This document shows positions 24,308-46,273 of a stretch of 46,273 bases of DNA, piece by piece. The stretch is taken from IMG/VR virus record IMGVR_UViG_3300046471_000252, positions 1-46,273 of that record; one strand, written 5' to 3'. Numbering within the stretch: position 1 is the first letter of the stretch; each line of letters begins with the position of its first letter. The translations under genes were made by a program, and so were the position numbers. The stretch is from a virus. The notes under the pieces were generated by a model that was not told the DNA's origin, made no database searches, and saw only the letters and a program-made list of their open reading frames with translations.

Positions 24308-24658
24308 CTATGACTTAGGCTGATTTGTTTTATCCGGGGCTTTCGGCTTCTCGCAACCCATGCAGTGCTCACAGTTCAACATCCTGCAGAGCCAGGCTTT
24401 CACGCGCTGCCAATACGTGACCATGAAGATGTGCCGAGCACCGGCAAGGGCTAACGATACGTGCAGCGTAAGACCAGCCGCAGTGGGGCCAATGAAAATG
24501 TTCTGTTCACGATTCACCACCACGAAACCACTGATTGCGATCGCGGAATAGATCAACTTCCCGAGAATGCCATCCCTCACCTTGCCACTCAGAACACACC
24601 AGAGAGCCCACAGCGCGATCAATCCACACGCTATTGAGTTGATCAGTTCGTAGTTCAT
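24308..24658 (-). CDS. holin-like membrane protein, second of a pair
   Basis: A 116-residue protein with hydrophobic segments at about residues 6-24 (SIACGLIALWALWCVLSG), 33-48 (IYSAIAISGFVVV) and 58-80. The cytosolic tail is short, Cys-rich (CRMLNCEHCMGCEKP) and charged. Three segments and a charged tail fit a class I holin. It overlaps the preceding holin-like gene by an ATGA junction. One of the pair may be the holin and the other an antiholin or pinholin partner. Confidence 0.65.
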   Translation of the reverse strand: MNYELINSIACGLIALWALWCVLSGKVRDGILGKLIYSAIAISGFVVVNREQNIFIGPTAAGLTLHVSLALAGARHIFMVTYWQRVKAWLCRMLNCEHCMGCEKPKAPDKTNQPKS

Positions 24659-24987
24659 GGTGGATTACCTCCTCCAAACCGCTGGCGGATAAACGCCCAG
24701 AGGTCGGCGGCTTTGATTGCTCGCGTGATTGCGGCGATCAACGACCCGCCAAAGGTCCCCAGCAAGAATCCAATCCCCGCAACACTTCGTGGCTCCACCA
24801 CACCCAAATAGGCGCTGATCAAGCCAGTTAAGTAGTGCGCGCACACTGCGCCGGAGAAAATGAAGATCGCCCAGGCTTTACGATCAATCAGGTCGTCCTT
24901 GTGCCAAAAGCTTGCAGCGACTGCTCCAAGCAAACCAGCCACAAACCATGAATCCAACCTGTCGAGCAGGCGGTATAGGAAATCCAT
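24655..24987 (-). CDS. holin-like membrane protein, first of a pair
   Basis: A 110-residue protein with hydrophobic segments at about residues 14-28 (WFVAGLLGAVAASF), 38-58 (AWAIFIFSGAVCAHYLTGLIS) and 66-90 (SVAGIGFLLGTFGGSLIAAI), and a basic, Gly-rich C terminus. This is the plan of Pseudomonas phage holins. It is the first gene of the late operon after the leader terminator, like lambda S, but the endolysin and spanins lie about 23 kb downstream. Confidence 0.68.
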   Translation of the reverse strand: MDFLYRLLDRLDSWFVAGLLGAVAASFWHKDDLIDRKAWAIFIFSGAVCAHYLTGLISAYLGVVEPRSVAGIGFLLGTFGGSLIAAITRAIKAADLWAFIRQRFGGGNPP

Positions 24988-25050: not shown

Positions 25051-25083
25051 AAAAACGAAAAAGCCCCGACGCAGAGTCGAGGC
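25051..25083 (-). terminator. late-leader terminator (tR'-like) upstream of the holin genes
   Basis: On the minus strand an 8-bp stem (GCCTCGAC / GTCGGGGC, one wobble pair) is followed by TTTTTCGTTTTT. It lies 64 bases before the first holin gene, as lambda tR' lies before S. Confidence 0.82.
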
Positions 25084-25298
25084 CTTGAATAGGTGTGCGG
25101 TCTTTCCCGCCGTCCGCCGAAGAGATTCGCAACGCCGGCACCCAAATGCACCAGTCTCGTCGTTCGCTCGCGCGCCATCCAGCAAGCACTGTTAGGGTCT
25201 GGATGCACGGGCTGCCGGTGTTTTGTCGTAGCACTGCACGACCGGCTGATCAGTGTCCAGGCCTTCCCTAAGGCTGCCCTGGCTACAGTGGATCGAAA
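25084..25298 (-). promoter_or_regulatory. late leader region
   Basis: This 215-base stretch has no convincing gene. It lies between the tRNA and the leader terminator. By comparison with lambda it should contain the late promoter or a short leader RNA. It has imperfect inverted repeats (for example around 25258-25283), but I could not pick a convincing -35/-10 pair. Confidence 0.4.
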
Positions 25299-25374
25299 TG
25301 GTTGCGAGGGCCGGATTCGAACCGACGACCTTCGGGTTATGAGCCCAACGAGCTGACCGCTGCTCTACCACGCA
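25299..25374 (-). tRNA. initiator-type tRNA-Met (CAT anticodon)
   Basis: A 76-base cloverleaf with encoded CCA. The stems are acceptor TGCGTGG / CCTCGCA (one T-T mismatch), D arm GAGC / GCTC, anticodon arm TTGGG-CTCATAA-CCCGA, variable AGGTC and T arm GTCGG-TTCGAAT-CCGGC. Three G-C pairs next to the anticodon loop and the A11-T24 D-stem pair are initiator-tRNA hallmarks, and the sequence closely resembles bacterial tRNA-fMet. It differs in having T1-A72 in place of the usual C1 x A72 mismatch and a D loop one base shorter. It lies seven bases after a terminator, so it needs read-through or its own promoter. Confidence 0.88.
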
Positions 25375-25380
25375 GAAACG

Positions 25381-25404
25381 AAAAACCCGGCTCAAGGGCC
25401 GGGT
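25381..25404 (-). terminator. intrinsic terminator after the Q-position gene
   Basis: On the minus strand a 7-bp perfect stem (ACCCGGC / GCCGGGT, 6-nt loop) is followed by TTTTT. It closes the early operon just before the tRNA. Confidence 0.85.
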
Positions 25405-25479
25405 TCTGGAAGGGTGTGCGTTGGAGGTAAGTTGCGCACTGTGGGAAAATTAACTGCAAACCCCCACCATGTCAACAGA

Positions 25480-26157
25480 TTACGCTGCTGATTCTTCCTT
25501 CTCCGCGTGAATCAACTGCCATACCGGCGATTGGGCCTCTAGATCCACTTCTTTGATGACGCCTTTCAGTGATTCCCACAACTCTAACCAGTCGCGATTC
25601 CAGTGCTTCGGCTCGATCGATACACCGAAGAAAGCATTCATTTCAGCAGCCACGCGGGCTGGCCCCCACTCGGCCGCACCCGTGACTTCAGCCTTGTACG
25701 ACTGCAAGGCCAGCGTCACCAGGTACTGAGCCTTCACGCGCTTGGCCGAGGTCAGATCGGGGAGCTGCGCCTTGGCGGTGACCAGCAGCACGGCATTCAT
25801 TACGTGCTGCATGGTCAGGCATGGGTGATAAAGGAAGTGCCCGAACTGCTGCACCTGAAAAGGTAGTGTGCCAATGGCGCGCTGAATCTTGCCCATCATC
25901 ACCAGGTGCGCAGCGCGGGCCGTGGAACGGCCTATCGGTGTGCGGCGCGTCTCGCTGATGCTGATGCGCTGGCGAGCAACCTTGATTCGTTCTTCCTTGT
26001 CATCGCCCATGGCGGCAAAAACCACCTCATGCTGGCGAGCTCTGGCCTTCTTGGCGACGGTGGCAGACTTGGCCGAGTCAATGGCTACAGCGGATATCGA
26101 GGAGTTCGACTCATGCTGCGAGTCGGTCCAGGCTTGACGCGCTCCAATCAGTTTCAT
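25480..26157 (-). CDS. protein in the antiterminator Q position
   Basis: A 225-residue protein. I chose the ATG at 26157 because a strong Shine-Dalgarno (GGGGAG) lies eight bases upstream. Residues 40-90 are strongly basic (KKARARQHEV, KEERIKVARQRISISETRRT, IGRSTARAAH), and the rest is helical with aromatic motifs (FGHFLYHPCLTMQHV, FFGVSIEPKHWNRDWLELWE). It is the last gene of the early operon, just before a terminator, the late leader and the lysis/late genes, which is the place of lambda Q. I do not recognise the family; a late regulator is the best guess from position. Confidence 0.55.
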   Translation of the reverse strand: MKLIGARQAWTDSQHESNSSISAVAIDSAKSATVAKKARARQHEVVFAAMGDDKEERIKVARQRISISETRRTPIGRSTARAAHLVMMGKIQRAIGTLPFQVQQFGHFLYHPCLTMQHVMNAVLLVTAKAQLPDLTSAKRVKAQYLVTLALQSYKAEVTGAAEWGPARVAAEMNAFFGVSIEPKHWNRDWLELWESLKGVIKEVDLEAQSPVWQLIHAEKEESAA

Positions 26158-26720: not shown

Positions 26721-28001
26721 TTAAACCTCGCCTATGGTTGATTCTTGAATGGCCTCGCAGGCCTTATGTTCTGCGGCTTCCGGGGCATTACCAGAATCTC
26801 CCGATCTAAAGCCGGTCAACGCGTGAATACGTTTGAAGCCCTTCGCATCTAGATACGCGCACCACCGATCCAACGCCTCACGCTTGCGGCTCATCACGTC
26901 TGACTGGATGTACACCTTCACGTTGTGGCCCATGGCGTGGTTAATCAGCAGCTCACCGATCAGGTGATCGACGCCGATGTCTGCCCAGCCGGTGCGGGCC
27001 ACCTTGCGCAGGTCATGACTGGTCCACTCGCCCTGCCCCAGTCGGGTGAACACGGCACTCGCCTGACCTTCACTGAGCGCCTTGCCATTGCGTGATGGGA
27101 ACAGGTACTGACCGGCGTAGCCGCTTGCCCACTGGGTTTCGCGATAAGTCATCAGCAGCTGGCGTACCTGGTCCGTCAGCGGCAGGTGATGCTCGACGCC
27201 GGTCTTGGTGTTCTCGGCCGGAATGAACCACTCGCGCTCGGCCAGGCTGATGTGCGACCACTGAGCCTGACGGGTCTCACCGATGCGGGTGCCATGGCAG
27301 AGCATCATCAGGGCAAGCATGGCATCCGCCGGGGCGCTGGCCAGGGCATCCCGCAGCAGAGCAATCAGGTCCTGAAGCTGGGTCACCCGCAACCGGGACG
27401 GCTTCACCCCGACCTTGGCCTTGGAGAAGTCGCTGAATTTGACGTCCTTCATCGGGTTGGCCGCGATCAGCCGAAGCTTGAACGCCTGGCGGAATGCCAG
27501 GGCCAGCAGCTGGAACGCCGAGCGCACGTAGTCGATACCGATGGATTCCTGCGCAGGCCACATGAACTGATCGTCGAGGGTCGCCTTGTCGATTGAGGCC
27601 AACGGCACAGCGCCCAGCAGCGGCTTCAGGTGGCACTTGATCAGCGATGCGCCCGTCTTCTTGCGCTTGCTCGACAGACTACGGTCGCGGGCCATCCGGT
27701 CGGCATACCAGTCCAACAGCTCCCCCGTCAGAACCCACTTCGACAGGTTGGAGCCAGCACCGGCATCAAGACGCAGGCGAATCGCCGGCAGCGCCGCGAC
27801 CACCTGCTTGGTATTGAGGTCAGGGAAGTTGCCGACGAGGTTCCATTTCCCCTTGAGCACCAGGTACCACGAAGCCCGAGCGCGATCCTTGTTGAAGCGC
27901 AGGTAGAGGCCACGGTTGTCGGTGTCGCGCAGATCGCGCACGGCGCCGGCGGCCTGCCGTTTGATTTCGGCGTCAGACATCTTCACCGCAGCGGTACTCA
28001 T
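26721..28001 (-). CDS. tyrosine recombinase inside the early operon
   Basis: A 426-residue tyrosine recombinase of the P4-like type. Residues 1-100 are the arm-type DNA-binding part (GLYLRFNKDRARASWYLVLKGK), followed by a core-binding domain (YADRMARDRSLSSK...). The catalytic residues are visible: Arg in CHGTRIGETRQAQW, Lys in ENTKTGVEHHL, His-x-x-Arg in WTSHDLRKVART, His in NHAMGHNV and the Tyr in KVYIQSD. It is not the integrase at the right end, is coupled by ATGA to the gene before it, and has no adjacent excisionase. Its target site is not apparent. Confidence 0.88.
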   Translation of the reverse strand: MSTAAVKMSDAEIKRQAAGAVRDLRDTDNRGLYLRFNKDRARASWYLVLKGKWNLVGNFPDLNTKQVVAALPAIRLRLDAGAGSNLSKWVLTGELLDWYADRMARDRSLSSKRKKTGASLIKCHLKPLLGAVPLASIDKATLDDQFMWPAQESIGIDYVRSAFQLLALAFRQAFKLRLIAANPMKDVKFSDFSKAKVGVKPSRLRVTQLQDLIALLRDALASAPADAMLALMMLCHGTRIGETRQAQWSHISLAEREWFIPAENTKTGVEHHLPLTDQVRQLLMTYRETQWASGYAGQYLFPSRNGKALSEGQASAVFTRLGQGEWTSHDLRKVARTGWADIGVDHLIGELLINHAMGHNVKVYIQSDVMSRKREALDRWCAYLDAKGFKRIHALTGFRSGDSGNAPEAAEHKACEAIQESTIGEV

Positions 28002-33290: not shown

Positions 33291-33479
33291 ATCAGCGAGA
33301 CAAACAACAGACCGCATTGCCTCTACCGGCGACCGGCGAACAGACAGGCCCGAAAGCCTGCCAACGACAGGAGAACCCTGTACGGCTGATCGATGGTGAA
33401 ACGCCATAACCGTGTGAATGACCCGGCAAGCAATGCGCCCCGCCCCTCCGGCGGTAATAGGACGGACAGTTTCACTGAT

Positions 33480-33499
33480 GCACCTGGTTCTCCGGGTGC
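33480..33499 (+). repeat. intergenic hairpin element, copy 1
   Basis: An 8-bp stem GCACCTGG / CCGGGTGC with a TTCT loop is followed by the tract GCATTGGGAAATCA (its GC is shared with the stem) and then the Shine-Dalgarno of the LuxR-type gene. The same design precedes the next genes. Confidence 0.6.
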
Positions 33500-33528
33500 A
33501 TTGGGAAATCAACCGAGAGGTACACAGC

Positions 33529-33834
33529 ATGGAATCAACAATCAAAAGCGGCACATGGATCGGCCATCTCGGCCGAGGCCTTGCCCGTCGAGAGCTTCAG
33601 TTTCTGCTTTCAGTTGCCCAGGGATTGACCGCCAAACAGATCGCCAGGGCGTTCGATGTTGAACCTGGGACAGTGGTCAAGCGGATATCCAACGCAATGT
33701 TCAAGCTGGGTGTTCACCGCCAAACCGCACTGGTCGCCGAGGCGATGCGCCGAGAAATAATCGTTGGACTGGCTGACTGCCCAAATCCTCAAGGCCCAGC
33801 TGGGGAATCTACTGATGGTGTTTTTATCGCGTAA
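33529..33834 (+). CDS. LuxR-type HTH regulator, small
   Basis: A 101-residue protein. LARRELQFLLSVAQGLTAKQ, IARAFDVEPGTVVKRISNAM, FKLGVHRQTALVAEAMRRE is a GerE/LuxR C-terminal DNA-binding domain on its own, without a sensor domain. I chose the ATG at 33529 because GAGAGG lies eight bases upstream. First gene of the rightward operon, it is in the place where lambda has N, but the sequence is a DNA-binding regulator and not an Arg-rich peptide. It may regulate phage or host promoters. Confidence 0.78.
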   Translation: MESTIKSGTWIGHLGRGLARRELQFLLSVAQGLTAKQIARAFDVEPGTVVKRISNAMFKLGVHRQTALVAEAMRREIIVGLADCPNPQGPAGESTDGVFIA

Positions 33835-38101: not shown

Positions 38102-38681
38102 AGCCCTTTTCGAGAGTGAGCCGACGAAGCAGTTCAAACCCATCTTCACCTTTCTTCCATACCCATGGAAGAACTTCTACTGTTGTTTGAACATCCCCAT
38201 ACAGACACCGCGCAAGCGCGACGCACCAATTTCGCACGTCTGTCAGCAACTTAATGAAATCTCCACTTTTGATGCTGTGGGTAATTCGACTGTCGCCTAG
38301 GGAGGTTTTTAGATCATGATGGGCAACGCATTTGTGCCGAAATGTTTTTACTTTTAATGCTGTATAGCAACTCTTTATTTCTAGGTAATCCACAAGCAAT
38401 TCGTCTGTAAGCTTTTGGCGATGCGCATCGACTAGGTAATCAAGTGAAAGATTTACATCCTTGTTGCCTTTACTATCAAGGACCGCAGAAATTTGAGTCA
38501 ATATGCTTATAAACATTGCTTTTTGAAGAACATTGAACACAGGAGAAAGGTTAGCACTTAACACCTCACATGAATCCTCGGAGCAGTAAAGCTGCTCGTA
38601 CAATTGGACCTCATATTTAAGAGAATTAACTCGCTTTGTGTATGTATCTAGAGCTTTAAACTCTCGACTCGGCTCGCACAT
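38097..38681 (-). CDS. HEPN/AbiU2-like protein, probable defence cargo
   Basis: A 194-residue helical protein on the strand opposite to its neighbours and lower in GC. NVLQKAMFISILTQISAVLD, a long helix, then ALKVKTFRHKCVAHHDLKTS carries an R-x5-H motif (Arg115, His121) like the RNase motif of HEPN proteins; the overall pattern fits AbiU2. Such proteins can block rival phages by abortive infection. The position as a lone, opposed gene between operon genes is that of a moron with its own promoter. Activity is inferred. Confidence 0.7.
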   Translation of the reverse strand: MCEPSREFKALDTYTKRVNSLKYEVQLYEQLYCSEDSCEVLSANLSPVFNVLQKAMFISILTQISAVLDSKGNKDVNLSLDYLVDAHRQKLTDELLVDYLEIKSCYTALKVKTFRHKCVAHHDLKTSLGDSRITHSIKSGDFIKLLTDVRNWCVALARCLYGDVQTTVEVLPWVWKKGEDGFELLRRLTLEKGS

Positions 38682-38763
38682 AACTCACTCCTGTTTAACC
38701 CCATGCCGGGCCGAACACAAATACCCCACTTCAACGAATCACGCCAGCCGGCGAGGATCCCCT

Positions 38764-40569
38764 ATGTCCGCACAACAGAAGTTACCCCAGTTCATCCATG
38801 GCCAGCCAAGCATGGGCCTGCCGTTCGAAAAAGAACTGGTGGTGGACCTGTTCGCCGGTGGCGGTGGCGCCAGCACCGGCATCGCCCGGGCGTACCGGGA
38901 GCCGGACGTGGCGGTAAACCACAACCCGATCGCCCTGGCCGTGCACCGTGCCAACCACCCGAAGACGGCACACTATGTTGCCGATGTGTATGAGGTATGC
39001 CCCCGAGCGGCAACCGGCGGCCAGCCAGTGGCGATCATTTGGGCATCACCCGATTGCCGCCACCACAGCAAAGCCAAAGGCGGCGCACCGCGTGACCGAG
39101 GCGTCCGCGGGCTGGCATGGGTGGTGATTCGTTGGCTGTTCATCACCAAATCGCGACTTCTCTTCTTGGAGAACGTCGAAGAGTTCTGCGACTGGGGGCC
39201 GATCGACGACGAAGGTCAGCCGATCAAGGCCGACCGCGGGCGCACGTTCAAAGCATTCATTGCCGCGATCAGCTCGGGGCTTCCTGCTGATCACCCGGAT
39301 ATGCTGGAGATCATGCAGGCTATCGGCGAGTTCGTGCCGATGGAGGCACTGGTGCGTGGACTTGGCTACAACGTCGAATGGCGCGAGCGCATCGCAGCCA
39401 ACGCCGGCACGCCAACCATTCGCAAACGTCTGTACCTGGTCGCGCGCAGCGATGGCAAGCCGATCGTTTGGCCAGCGCCGAAACGGCACAAGACACCGAC
39501 CGCCAAACAGCAACCTTGGCGCACTGCCGCGGAGTGCATCGACTGGAGCAACTTGGGCCGAACGATCTTCCGCGCCAAGCCGATGGCGGTGAACACGATG
39601 CGCCGCGTGGCCAAGGGCTGTTGGAGGCATGTGCTGACCAGCGCGAAGCCGTTCATTGTCCCGATGCGCGGCACGTCAGAATCGCACACCAGCACCCACG
39701 GCGTGGATGGAGCCTTATCGACCATCAGCGCCGGCGGCACGCATCACGCACTGGTGCAGCCGGTAGCGGCGCCATTCCTCACCGAGTGCGCCAACGGCTC
39801 ATCTCAACGCAACTTCGACGCACAAGAACCACTGCGCACACAGGTCGCCCAGGTCAAAGGTGGCCACTTCGCGATGGTTGCCGCACACATGACGGCCTTC
39901 GGGCAGAACGCTGCTGGCAGTTCCCCGGACGAGCCAACGCAGACTGTGCTAGCCGGCGCCGCAAGACACGGTATCGTCGCCGCGTTCTTCGAACAGGCGA
40001 ACGGCGGGTACTACAAGGGCGACGGCCGTTCGGCCTATGACCCAATCTCGACTATCTGCCAATCCGGCGCCAACCAACGGCTGGTCAACGCCTACCTGGT
40101 GAAGTACTACGGCAACGAGAAGGACGGCATTTCGCTCGCTGAGCCGATGCACACTCTGCCGACAAAGGACCGCGTTGCGCTGGTCGAGGTTGTTCAGGTG
40201 CCGGACACCCTGACTCCGGAACAGATGGAAGGCGCTCGGCGCTGCGCCGCCTTCATGCACGAGCATCTGCCGGAGCATTTCAAAGACCCGGCCGAGATGG
40301 TCATGGTCGGCGGCTATGTGCTGGTCGACATCACCCTGCGCATGCTGCAGCCACCTGAGCTGAAGGCAGCGCAGGGATTCGACAAGGGCTACATCATTGA
40401 TCGCGGGTTGTTCGTCGACCCGGTAACCGGCGCCGAAGAATGGCGCGACATAAACAAAACGGACCAGGTTCGGCTGATCGGCAACAGTGTCTGTCCGGAC
40501 GAAGCCGAAGCACTGGTCGCCGCAAACGCCGCCGACATCATCGAGCTTTACCAACGCCTCGCGGCCTGA
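38764..40569 (+). CDS. DNA (cytosine-5) methyltransferase with repeat-built central region
   Basis: A 601-residue C5-cytosine methyltransferase. Motif I is VVDLFAGGGGASTGI (26-40), motif IV is WASPDCRHHS with catalytic Cys98 (PDC instead of PPCQ), motif VI is LFLENVEEF (Glu136), motif VIII is PTIRKRLYLV and motif X is RLIGNSVCPDEA. Between VIII and IX, residues 296-470, are about five tandem repeats of 31-39 residues (for example HFAMVAAHMTAFG, RHGIVAAFFEQANGG, QRLVNAYLVKYYG, each followed by a P-x-x-T element). No restriction enzyme is next to it, so it likely protects phage DNA. GAGGA lies seven bases before the ATG at 38764. Confidence 0.88.
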   Translation: MSAQQKLPQFIHGQPSMGLPFEKELVVDLFAGGGGASTGIARAYREPDVAVNHNPIALAVHRANHPKTAHYVADVYEVCPRAATGGQPVAIIWASPDCRHHSKAKGGAPRDRGVRGLAWVVIRWLFITKSRLLFLENVEEFCDWGPIDDEGQPIKADRGRTFKAFIAAISSGLPADHPDMLEIMQAIGEFVPMEALVRGLGYNVEWRERIAANAGTPTIRKRLYLVARSDGKPIVWPAPKRHKTPTAKQQPWRTAAECIDWSNLGRTIFRAKPMAVNTMRRVAKGCWRHVLTSAKPFIVPMRGTSESHTSTHGVDGALSTISAGGTHHALVQPVAAPFLTECANGSSQRNFDAQEPLRTQVAQVKGGHFAMVAAHMTAFGQNAAGSSPDEPTQTVLAGAARHGIVAAFFEQANGGYYKGDGRSAYDPISTICQSGANQRLVNAYLVKYYGNEKDGISLAEPMHTLPTKDRVALVEVVQVPDTLTPEQMEGARRCAAFMHEHLPEHFKDPAEMVMVGGYVLVDITLRMLQPPELKAAQGFDKGYIIDRGLFVDPVTGAEEWRDINKTDQVRLIGNSVCPDEAEALVAANAADIIELYQRLAA

Positions 40570-43848: not shown

Positions 43849-44094
43849 GTGAATATTTACCGACATACCTTCGCAGCCGTCTGCCCGTCCGACGGCGAAT
43901 TGATCATCTACCAGTTGGAAGTTCGGGCACCCACGATGATCCGCGTCGAGCACATCAAGGCCGCGACCGCAGTCATCAAGAAGGGCTGGCACGAACAGAT
44001 CGCTGACCGACTGGCCGAGGACATCGGAGGCGATCAAACAATTACCGCCACGCACCAGGGTGTCGAGATCGAAACAGTGAGGCTTAGCGGATGA
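43849..44094 (+). CDS. small protein of unknown function
   Basis: An 81-residue protein: VNIYRHTFAAVCPSDGELII, YQLEVRAPTMIRVEHIKAAT, AVIKKGWHEQIADRLAEDIG. A beta-start followed by helices. I chose the GTG at 43849 because AAGGA lies six bases upstream and a hairpin precedes it; the longer frame from 43777 has no ribosome site. It is ATGA-coupled to the TGT-like gene, so it may be its partner. Confidence 0.62.
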   Translation: MNIYRHTFAAVCPSDGELIIYQLEVRAPTMIRVEHIKAATAVIKKGWHEQIADRLAEDIGGDQTITATHQGVEIETVRLSG

Positions 44095-44837
44095 TTCATT
44101 ACCACGGCTTGCCGATCACACCAGAGACAGCGGCAGCCGCGGCGATTGGCGGTGGCCACGCCTTTGTGAGCTTCAGCGATCCTCGGCAACTCGCCCTGGC
44201 AGCCCAAATCTGCCAGTCGTTTGCCATCGATAACGGGGCGTTCTCCGCCTGGAAACAAGGAAAACCCGTCACCGACTGGGAACCGTTCTACCGCTGGGCG
44301 GCGGATGCCAAGCTGATACCTGCGTGCGACTTCGCCGTAATACCTGATGTGATTGATGGTGACGAAAAGGCCAACGACGCATTGCTCGAAGAGTGGCCAT
44401 TACCTCGATGGTTTGGCGCGCCGGTTTGGCATATGCACGAAAGCCTCGAACGGTTGGAGCGATTGGCAAGTGGATGGCCCAGGGTCTGCATCGGCAGTTC
44501 GGGAGATTTTTCGCAACCAGGCAGCCCCGCCTGGTGGGTGCAGATGGGCAAAGCCATGCGGGTTGTTTGCGACGATGACGGTCGCCCAATGTGCAAGCTT
44601 CACGGACTGCGGATGCTTGACCCGGCCATCTTCGGCCACCTGCCACTCTCCAGCGCCGACAGCACCAACATCGGTCGGAACATCGGCATTGATCAGGCTT
44701 GGCGCGGGACGTACTCGCCACCGACGAAGGAGGCGCGAGCTTCGGTGATGCGCAGCCGAATCGAGTCCCACAACTCTCCGCCACGCTGGACCTACAGCAT
44801 TCCAGAAGCTGCGCCGACCCAAGGCGCACTGCTTTAA
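44091..44837 (+). CDS. TGT/DpdA-like protein, candidate 7-deazaguanine DNA transferase
   Basis: A 248-residue protein with the landmarks of the tRNA-guanine transglycosylase fold: FAIDNGAFSAWKQG (Asp47, like the substrate-binding Asp of TGT), CDFAVIPDVIDGD (Asp80/Asp86), WHMHES, RVCIGSSGDF, MCKLHGLRM and SSADSTNIGRN (Asp190 in the place of the nucleophile). Phage DpdA enzymes of this superfamily put 7-deazaguanines into DNA. No preQ0 synthesis genes are in the window, so it would use host precursor. It is short for the family. Assigned by motif order; DNA or tRNA as target is open. Confidence 0.55.
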   Translation: MIHYHGLPITPETAAAAAIGGGHAFVSFSDPRQLALAAQICQSFAIDNGAFSAWKQGKPVTDWEPFYRWAADAKLIPACDFAVIPDVIDGDEKANDALLEEWPLPRWFGAPVWHMHESLERLERLASGWPRVCIGSSGDFSQPGSPAWWVQMGKAMRVVCDDDGRPMCKLHGLRMLDPAIFGHLPLSSADSTNIGRNIGIDQAWRGTYSPPTKEARASVMRSRIESHNSPPRWTYSIPEAAPTQGALL

Positions 44838-44882: not shown

Positions 44883-45224
44883 ATGGCAGCAGCAGAACAG
44901 ATACCAGTTGAGTACCTGTCCGATAAAGTCGCCGAGAAGAACTTCGCGGAGATGGTCGGCACAACCCGGCGCGCGCTCCAAGGAAAGCGTCAGCGCAACA
45001 TCATCCCGAAAGGGGTGTGGAACGAAATCGACGGGCAGATTTATTACAGCATCAGGAGATATGAGGCATGGCTAGAAAGCCTTTGGGATTGCCCGCCGGA
45101 GTTGAATTCGCAGGTCAATCAGTCCGCATTCGCTTCACTTGGAAGTTCCGGCGCTGCGAGACCCTCGCCTATTCCCAAACGCCAAAAGGCATTAAAGCGG
45201 CCGCAGATCTACGCGCTACAGTAA
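44883..45224 (+). CDS. xis: excisionase-like protein
   Basis: A 113-residue protein. Residues 5-65 (VEYLSDKVAEKNFAEMVGTT, RRALQGKRQRNIIPKGVWNE, then YYSIRRYEAWLESLW) have the winged-helix pattern of phage excisionases of the AlpA/Xis type. The last 52 residues are encoded in DNA that overlaps the integrase gene in another frame. GGAGAACC precedes the ATG. Together with the integrase it would direct excision. Confidence 0.78.
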   Translation: MAAAEQIPVEYLSDKVAEKNFAEMVGTTRRALQGKRQRNIIPKGVWNEIDGQIYYSIRRYEAWLESLWDCPPELNSQVNQSAFASLGSSGAARPSPIPKRQKALKRPQIYALQ

Positions 45225-46273
45225 TCAGCCTGATCAAGCACGGCGTGATGGACGACCAGCGTTACGCCGAGCTTTTTCCGAACTCGACCTATTCCACCTA
45301 TTCTGCGACTCCGCTGTTCGGCGAGTACGCGCAGACCTGGCTCGACAGCCGGGAAGTCGTCGGGGGTACCCGGAAAAACTACCGGATTTCCCTCAACCTT
45401 TATTGGATGCCTCACCTGGCATTGCTCCCGATCGATCAGATCAGTTCGGCGATGATCCGGAAAATCGTCGGCGAGACGAAGTGGAAGTCGTCGACAGTAA
45501 AACGGTCGGCGATCCAGCGCCTGCACACCATGTTTGAAAGCGCGGTGAATGATGAGCTGATCACACGGAACCCGGTCGGCTCGATCGAACTGCCGGCGAA
45601 GGCGAAGAAACCAGTGGACCCGTTTACGGTAGTGGAGGCGGATTTGATCATAGGGCACCTATATAAGGTGCTGACCGGTTCGATGCGGGTTTACGCGGCC
45701 TACTTTGAGTTCGCGTTTTACACCGGCATGCGGCCAGGGGAGATAGCGGCGTTGCGCTGGGATGAGGTAGATACAGAGGGGCGAGTCGCCAACGTGTGCA
45801 GAATCGTGGCGGACTACAAGATCGAGGAGCGCACGAAAACCCGCGAGACACGGCGAGTCATGCTGAACAGCAGGGCATTGAATGCCATTGAGGCGGCCAA
45901 GGGCGTGGCCGATTTAAGGGCGAAGCAGAGCCGGCGCCAGCACAAGCAATCGCCGTACGTGTTCCCGCCGACGAAGAACTTTGAGTTCATCCAGCAAGCC
46001 AGCGTGACCGACAAACACTTCAAAGCGGCGCTGGTCACACTGAACATCCGGGCCAGACGGCAATACAACTGCCGGCACACTTACGCTACCATGTGCCTAA
46101 TGGCAGGCATGAACCTCGGGTTCATTGCGAATCAGCTCGGCCACAGCGTGCAAATGCTGCTGACGACATACGCCCGATGGATCAATTCCAGTGAAGACTG
46201 GAGCGAAGTCGGGAAGCTGGAGCAAAGCCTGATTGGTACAAAATTGGTACAGACAGAAACCGTACCCCTCTAG
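45068..46273 (+). CDS. int: integrase, tyrosine recombinase
   Basis: A 401-residue integrase. Residues 1-70 are an arm-type DNA-binding domain (GLPAGVEFAGQSVRIRFTWK, like DUF3596). Residues 80-180 are the core-binding domain (FGEYAQTWLDSREVVGGTRK). The catalytic domain has Arg in TGMRPGEIAALRW, His-x-x-Arg in CRHTYAT, His in LGHSV and the nucleophile Tyr in TTYARWI. AGGAG lies 10-12 bases before the ATG. The stop codon is the last three bases of the window. It overlaps xis by 157 bases. Confidence 0.92.
   Translation: MARKPLGLPAGVEFAGQSVRIRFTWKFRRCETLAYSQTPKGIKAAADLRATVISLIKHGVMDDQRYAELFPNSTYSTYSATPLFGEYAQTWLDSREVVGGTRKNYRISLNLYWMPHLALLPIDQISSAMIRKIVGETKWKSSTVKRSAIQRLHTMFESAVNDELITRNPVGSIELPAKAKKPVDPFTVVEADLIIGHLYKVLTGSMRVYAAYFEFAFYTGMRPGEIAALRWDEVDTEGRVANVCRIVADYKIEERTKTRETRRVMLNSRALNAIEAAKGVADLRAKQSRRQHKQSPYVFPPTKNFEFIQQASVTDKHFKAALVTLNIRARRQYNCRHTYATMCLMAGMNLGFIANQLGHSVQMLLTTYARWINSSEDWSEVGKLEQSLIGTKLVQTETVPL

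Follow-up and report, generated by a model that had tools for sequence, protein, structure and literature searches.

We find that a temperate lambdoid Pseudomonas phage carries an initiator-type tRNA gene at the entry of its late operon, in the leader between a gene for a Q-like antiterminator and the lysis genes. Similar tRNAs recur at this regulatory position in other phages and retain the features that set initiators apart. We consider it probable that the gene encodes a functional tRNA, an accessory RNA module of a Q-type late leader that would supply initiator during late infection. Throughout, the window refers to the whole stretch of DNA analyzed, 46,273 nucleotides in length.

An initiator-type tRNA on the minus strand

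ARAGORN identifies a single tRNA in the window, tRNA-Met(cat) at positions 25299-25374, read on the minus strand (25374→25299). The same segment scores 61.8 bits against the Rfam tRNA model, for which the gathering score is 29. A cloverleaf with a CAT anticodon had been described here in a first-pass annotation; the two programs agree with it and the strand is now added. The minus-strand sequence, separated by structural element, is as follows:

UGCGUGG UA GAGC AGCGGUCA GCUC G UUGGG CUCAUAA CCCGA AGGUC GUCGG UUCGAAU CCGGC CCUCGCA ACCA

The anticodon CAU is carried on a stem with three consecutive G:C pairs (G29-31:C39-41), and the D stem contains A11:U24, both as the annotation had read them. 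Also present are A73, G2:C71, C3:G70, G4:C69 and an encoded CCA. Two features of the acceptor stem, reported earlier as T1-A72 replacing C1 x A72 and a T-T mismatch, are confirmed as U1:A72 and U5•U68, the latter being the only mismatch in the stem. Position 1:72 is not the unpaired C1xA72 of a typical initiator. Because U1:A72 is able to pair, we use the label "initiator-type" instead of plain tRNA-fMet. ARAGORN, the Rfam score and the comparison of relatives bear out the assignment to the initiator type, as neither an elongator nor a pseudogene.

At minimum energy the sequence folds into the cloverleaf, but no more stably than shuffled sequences do (z 0.15). The reality of the tRNA is therefore established by homology and covariation, not by stability. 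About 23 other loci carry tRNAs of this kind, most of them in a matching context, which argues that it is more than a chance resemblance.

Conservation of the tRNA

The pattern of conservation was analyzed in 15 distinct late-leader sequences with a UGCGUGG acceptor. U1:A72 and U5•U68 are present in 15/15 sequences of this class. A11:U24, the GGG/CCC of the anticodon stem and the CCA are also constant, the constancy of GGG/CCC and CCA being partly imposed by the search pattern, which fixed the anticodon arm and CCA in part. The positions free of this bias are the 5' strand of the acceptor, the D stem and pairs 27:43, 28:42, 50:64 and 51:63. Among these, pair 27:43 is U-A, C-G or G-C, pair 50:64 is U•G, C-G, A-U, G•U or G-C, and pair 51:63 is C-G or U-A, with pairing kept at each. 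The anticodon and T stems thus vary yet continue to pair while the acceptor is invariant, indicating maintenance of the gene in its initiator-type form.

These data also bear on whether the gene is a degenerate tRNA in the process of being lost, with U5•U68 and U1:A72 as marks of decay. One acceptor mismatch and a weak predicted stability are what decay might produce, but the two supposed marks are shared by all 15 sequences while the other stems change with pairing preserved, and the CCA and loop landmarks are intact. We regard decay as extremely unlikely. A pseudogene was rejected on the basis of the conserved acceptor and covarying stems of the relatives.

Anatomy of the late leader

The leader is untranslated and lies in the order Q-like gene, promoter, terminator, tRNA, Proteo-phage-1 RNA, terminator, holins and terminase. 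The individual features are:

25480-26157, minus strand: Q-like late antiterminator gene (phrog_3373, E 1.3e-73; phrog_304, E 2.6e-7)
25447-25475, minus strand: late promoter TTGACA-N17-TAATTT, read in the sequence and conserved in Q relatives
25382-25407, minus strand: first intrinsic terminator of the leader (t1), from a terminator scan; ends a few bases before the tRNA
25299-25374, minus strand: initiator-type tRNA(CAU) with encoded CCA, U1:A72 and U5•U68 (ARAGORN, Rfam, relatives)
25210-25288, minus strand: Proteo-phage-1 RNA, Rfam RF03044 (79.5 bits, gathering score 42, model positions 1-82)
25088-25292, minus strand: full-length Proteo-phage-1 RNA of about 205 nt, from a 41-sequence alignment; ends in CACCTATT
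25060-25086, minus strand: second intrinsic terminator (t2), from a terminator scan
24655-24987, minus strand: holin, the first gene past the leader (phrog_2359, E 1e-34)
24308-24658, minus strand: second holin (phrog_2508, E 1e-34)

The reading frame of the Q-like gene is open to 26430, and the protein is likely 225 residues long, starting from an internal ATG. Its weaker match, phrog_304, is the family named "anti-termination protein Q-like"; searches of the protein against Pfam and NCBIfam gave no match. The TTGACA of the late promoter starts four bases past the stop codon of this gene. A promoter of this kind is present in 82 of 87 distinct Q relatives. A sigma-70 promoter scan missed this promoter because TAATTT fits only three of the six bases of TATAAT; comparison of the relatives recovered it. 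The promoter is followed by CCCAYAGTGCGCAACTTACC, both in the window and in the Q relatives inspected. Q relatives conserve this element, at about 25425-25445 on the minus strand, whether or not they have a tRNA, and it may be a Q-loading or pause element. Downstream of the two holins are a minor tail protein-like gene and the terminase genes. With a Q homologue upstream, a late promoter, an early terminator and lysis genes downstream, the predicted gene layout is that of a lambda-type late leader. The first-pass annotation had placed the tRNA at the head of the late operon, a position now upheld and sharpened by the Q-like gene, the promoter and a terminator on each side.

The excisionase and main integrase (45068-46273) are at the right end of the window. 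A second tyrosine recombinase is encoded in the early region near the Q-like gene (26721-28001, minus strand).

An alternative is that the tRNA is an attachment-site remnant or a recent host copy, taken from the host initiator gene through site-specific integration. The 3' half of the tRNA is nearly identical to the host gene and the second recombinase is 1.35 kb away. However, the gene is whole and has a conserved, non-host acceptor stem, and the main integrase is encoded, with the excisionase, at the opposite end of the genome. In Pseudomonas sp. GM18, moreover, the prophage copy is on another contig than all three host initiator genes. Such an origin is very unlikely. An attachment site within the tRNA gene, which should be adjacent to the integrase, match the 3' end of the host gene exactly and mark a prophage end, was rejected on these grounds.

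Other genes in the window include one at 44091-44837 (plus strand), whose product matches the queuine tRNA-ribosyltransferase-like phage family phrog_887, and a DNA methyltransferase gene at 38638-40569 (plus strand); the two are possibly DNA modification genes. The product of 33418-33834 (plus strand) matches the phage "sigma factor" family phrog_3282, and its NCBIfam matches, below cut-off, are mostly to LuxR-type DNA-binding domains.

Distribution of related tRNAs

One prophage contig (L006/L100) has an identical copy of the tRNA; that of Pseudomonas sp. GM18 (L401; L005) is diverged. The pattern used to search viral contigs left everything free but the anticodon arm and the 3' strand of the acceptor; TGCGTGGTAGAGCAG by itself is too loose a pattern. 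U1 and U5, neither of which was required, are present in 22/22 matching contigs. Among 400 Pseudomonas genomes, six contain an initiator-type tRNA with U1, one of them with A5:U68 paired.

The surroundings of these genes are also similar. Counting the window, a terminator lies within 45 nt upstream of the tRNA in 18 of 24 distinct loci, versus 1.9% of random positions, and within 420 nt downstream in 21 of 24, versus 16%. The upstream genes tested fall in two different Q-type families, phrog_3373 and phrog_3412, the latter including the gene at the Q position of phage D3. Judged by this context, most of the related tRNAs sit in a late leader. Two loci with the U1:A72/U5•U68 acceptor, L139 and L150, have no Q-type late leader that we could see, and L139 is part of a multi-tRNA cluster; the acceptor type is therefore not exclusive to late leaders.

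Two samples were assembled independently of the tRNA pattern. When leaders were collected by their Q gene, a tRNA was present in 3/87, and when collected by their holin, in 2/72; all of these tRNAs are initiator-type (3/3 and 2/2), although the numbers are small and one phage is common to both samples. As far as these sequences indicate, the tRNA is an optional module of the late leader, missing from most relatives.

The adjacent Proteo-phage-1 RNA

The tRNA is separated by 10 nt from a match to Proteo-phage-1. The 82-nt Rfam model covers less than half of what is conserved: the conserved stretch extends about 120 nt beyond it, to CACCTATT. In the 41-sequence alignment, six helices are backed by covariation, with 96.2% of cells paired. 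Seventeen of 37 pairs are changed on both sides, a level reached in 0/500 shuffles, and sliding the helix partners abolishes the support. Three of the covarying helices and the last hairpin are outside the Rfam model. In this hairpin, just before the terminal motif, the G(A/G)AAGA loop is kept, and its stem comes in at least five fully paired, interchangeable versions. A GCCGG loop and a CCGGC tail could form a pseudoknot; the pairing is conserved without any covarying change, and in many rows of the alignment this segment is out of register by one base. Given this lack of variation and the shifted rows, we treat the pairing as unproven. Our literature search on Proteo-phage-1 found no openly accessible paper.

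The longer RNA is also present in L202, L313, L325 and others. An initiator-type tRNA directly precedes Proteo-phage-1, with differing upstream sequences, in L313, L427, L428, L437, L439, L440 and L441. Other late leaders contain conserved stretches, probably RNAs, that alternate with tRNAs and Proteo-phage-1: at about 3330-3600 in L203, in L351, L356 and L432 (GAATGCGCAGGCTGATGCGC and variants), and in L392, L395 and L433 (GCCCGGCGGAAACG...GTAACAGTCAG). In some phages, such stretches or tRNAs come after Proteo-phage-1. No Rfam family matched them at the gathering threshold in L203, L351, L356, L392, L432 and L433, the loci scanned. A relaxed-E-value Rfam search of the leader of the window gave only sub-threshold extra matches, and neither GOLLD nor ROOL matched the window at the gathering threshold.

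The proximity of the two RNAs raises the question whether the tRNA serves as a processing or structural element, its fold cutting or protecting the leader through RNase P or RNase E sites, or acting as a partner of Proteo-phage-1, with the charged tRNA unused. The first-pass annotation had offered an RNA-processing point as one role. The tRNA lies between two terminators and 10 nt before Proteo-phage-1, and in other phages leaders found through Proteo-phage-1 may hold Thr, Asn (as Thr-Asn) or Gly tRNAs next to it instead. GOLLD and ROOL RNAs likewise have tRNAs in their vicinity, and in one case a GOLLD follows immediately after a Met-tRNA (PMC12286853). On the other hand, 77 of 84 Proteo-phage-1 RNAs have no upstream tRNA and some late-leader tRNAs have no Proteo-phage-1. 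Two further points weaken processing as the main role: the tRNA is absent from most phages that share the Q and promoter (present in 3/87), and the initiator-specific features, needless for a cleavage site, have been kept. We think a purely processing or structural role distinctly unlikely, and favor a tRNA that acts in translation.

A possible role in late translation

If the tRNA is a working initiator, its position suggests how it would be used. Transcription from the late promoter would normally halt at t1, just before the tRNA. The Q-like protein would make the polymerase resistant to terminators, so that leader RNA with the tRNA and Proteo-phage-1 appears as the late phase begins. Excision of the tRNA, charging with methionine and formylation would be the work of host enzymes, and the product would top up or replace host initiator tRNA during synthesis of structural and lysis proteins. 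From the sequence, it is plausible that the phage tRNA raises translation starts, as the annotation had suggested; nothing links it to GTG starts, which the annotation had connected with it.

Efficient formylation is not assured. The elements listed for this reaction, A73, G2:C71, C3:G70, G4:C69 and A11:U24 (PMC9976931, PMC7949028), are in place; the only initiator identity element missing from the window tRNA is the unpaired 1:72. It is this open position that chiefly determines formylation (PMC9976931), and U1:A72 is able to pair. This pair may also weaken discrimination from elongators. We speculate that U5•U68 loosens the acceptor stem and in this way offsets U1:A72. Nor is it obvious that extra gene dosage alone would help, because the host has about 2-4 initiator genes per genome, as estimated from 60 Pseudomonas genomes.

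Could the phage tRNA instead, or in addition, be a spare that escapes nucleases, replacing host initiator tRNA destroyed by VapC-like anticodon nucleases? VapC of enteric bacteria cleaves initiator tRNA between A38 and C39 (PMC4105405), and phage tRNAs have been proposed in general to escape anticodon nucleases through loop changes (PMC10264068). The anticodon loop is CUCAUAA in every host initiator gene listed from the 60 Pseudomonas genomes but differs in 9 of 18 distinct late-leader phage copies; the change is to U38 or C38 in seven and to C33 in two D3-type copies. In some relatives, therefore, a changed base at the VapC-type cut site might also protect the phage tRNA. The window copy, however, keeps A38 and a loop identical to that of the host, with no change at the cut site, and phages of the host of VapC-LT2 generally avoid encoding tRNA-fMet (PMC10264068). 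Since the window copy has the host loop, nuclease evasion is at most part of the story of the family; we consider it the strongest alternative or supplement to a role in late translation, possible but doubtful.

A broader version of the translational reading is rather unlikely, in our estimate. The late leaders of many Pseudomonas phages would form a Q-controlled, modular RNA island, in which the phage-specific U1:A72/U5•U68 acceptor is tuned differently from that of the host, and the tRNA and the RNA of about 205 nt act as a unit that redirects late translation.

The gene bears on the old question of why phages carry tRNAs, and compensation for rare internal codons cannot account for an initiator tRNA. 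Here an initiator-type tRNA recurs at one regulatory position, and the sites at which it diverges from the host match determinants of nuclease cleavage and formylation. Inducible Pseudomonas prophages, such as that of GM18, make its function open to direct test, and with the longer Proteo-phage-1 model there is a defined new target RNA.

Comparison with known systems

Phage initiator tRNAs are a known kind: 334 phage records match the window tRNA, and 83 of 113 CAU tRNAs are initiator-type in a sample of viral contigs with a host-like anticodon arm. Many of the latter have U1 or another non-C base at position 1. The general statement of the first-pass annotation that phage tRNAs normally support elongation was therefore too strong. 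As far as we have searched, mostly in open-access literature, four aspects appear to be new. The first two, for which we found no description, are the recurrent late-leader position and the conserved U1:A72/U5•U68 acceptor. The third is that half of the phage copies, but no listed host gene, have an altered loop, position 38 being the one most often changed. The fourth is the lengthening of Proteo-phage-1, supported by covariation, from 82 nt to about 205 nt.

Compared with the tRNA-fMet of the Pseudomonas host, the window tRNA shares CAU, the three G:C pairs of the anticodon stem, A11:U24, G2:C71, C3:G70, G4:C69 and A73. It differs in having U1:A72 where the host has C1xA72, in U5•U68 and in a D loop one base shorter, and it is located in a phage late leader whereas the host gene is at a chromosomal locus.

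The closest parallel in position is found in phages D3 (AF165214) and BUCT566 (NC_074664), in which an initiator-type tRNA, annotated merely as tRNA-Met, comes directly after the Q-position gene, a promoter and a terminator, and before the lysis genes. These tRNAs have A11:U24 and GGG/CCC, like that of the window, but differ in C1xU72, G5•U68 and C33, and the sequences downstream are not Proteo-phage-1. Similar CAU tRNAs occur in large phages such as Aeromonas AP1 and in viral contigs, and are initiator-type in AP1 and most of the sample; these genomes are of other kinds, with another gene order.

The leader as a whole resembles the pR'-Q-tR' late leader of lambda, with its Q gene, late promoter, early terminator and lysis genes. 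Stx phages have tRNA genes in the leader downstream of Q, and these are elongator tRNAs. The Q of the window phage is of a different family.

The neighboring RNA matches the whole of RF03044, and conservation continues for about 120 nt beyond the model. Like Proteo-phage-1, GOLLD and ROOL are structured phage RNAs of obscure function that lie near tRNAs, and both are much larger.
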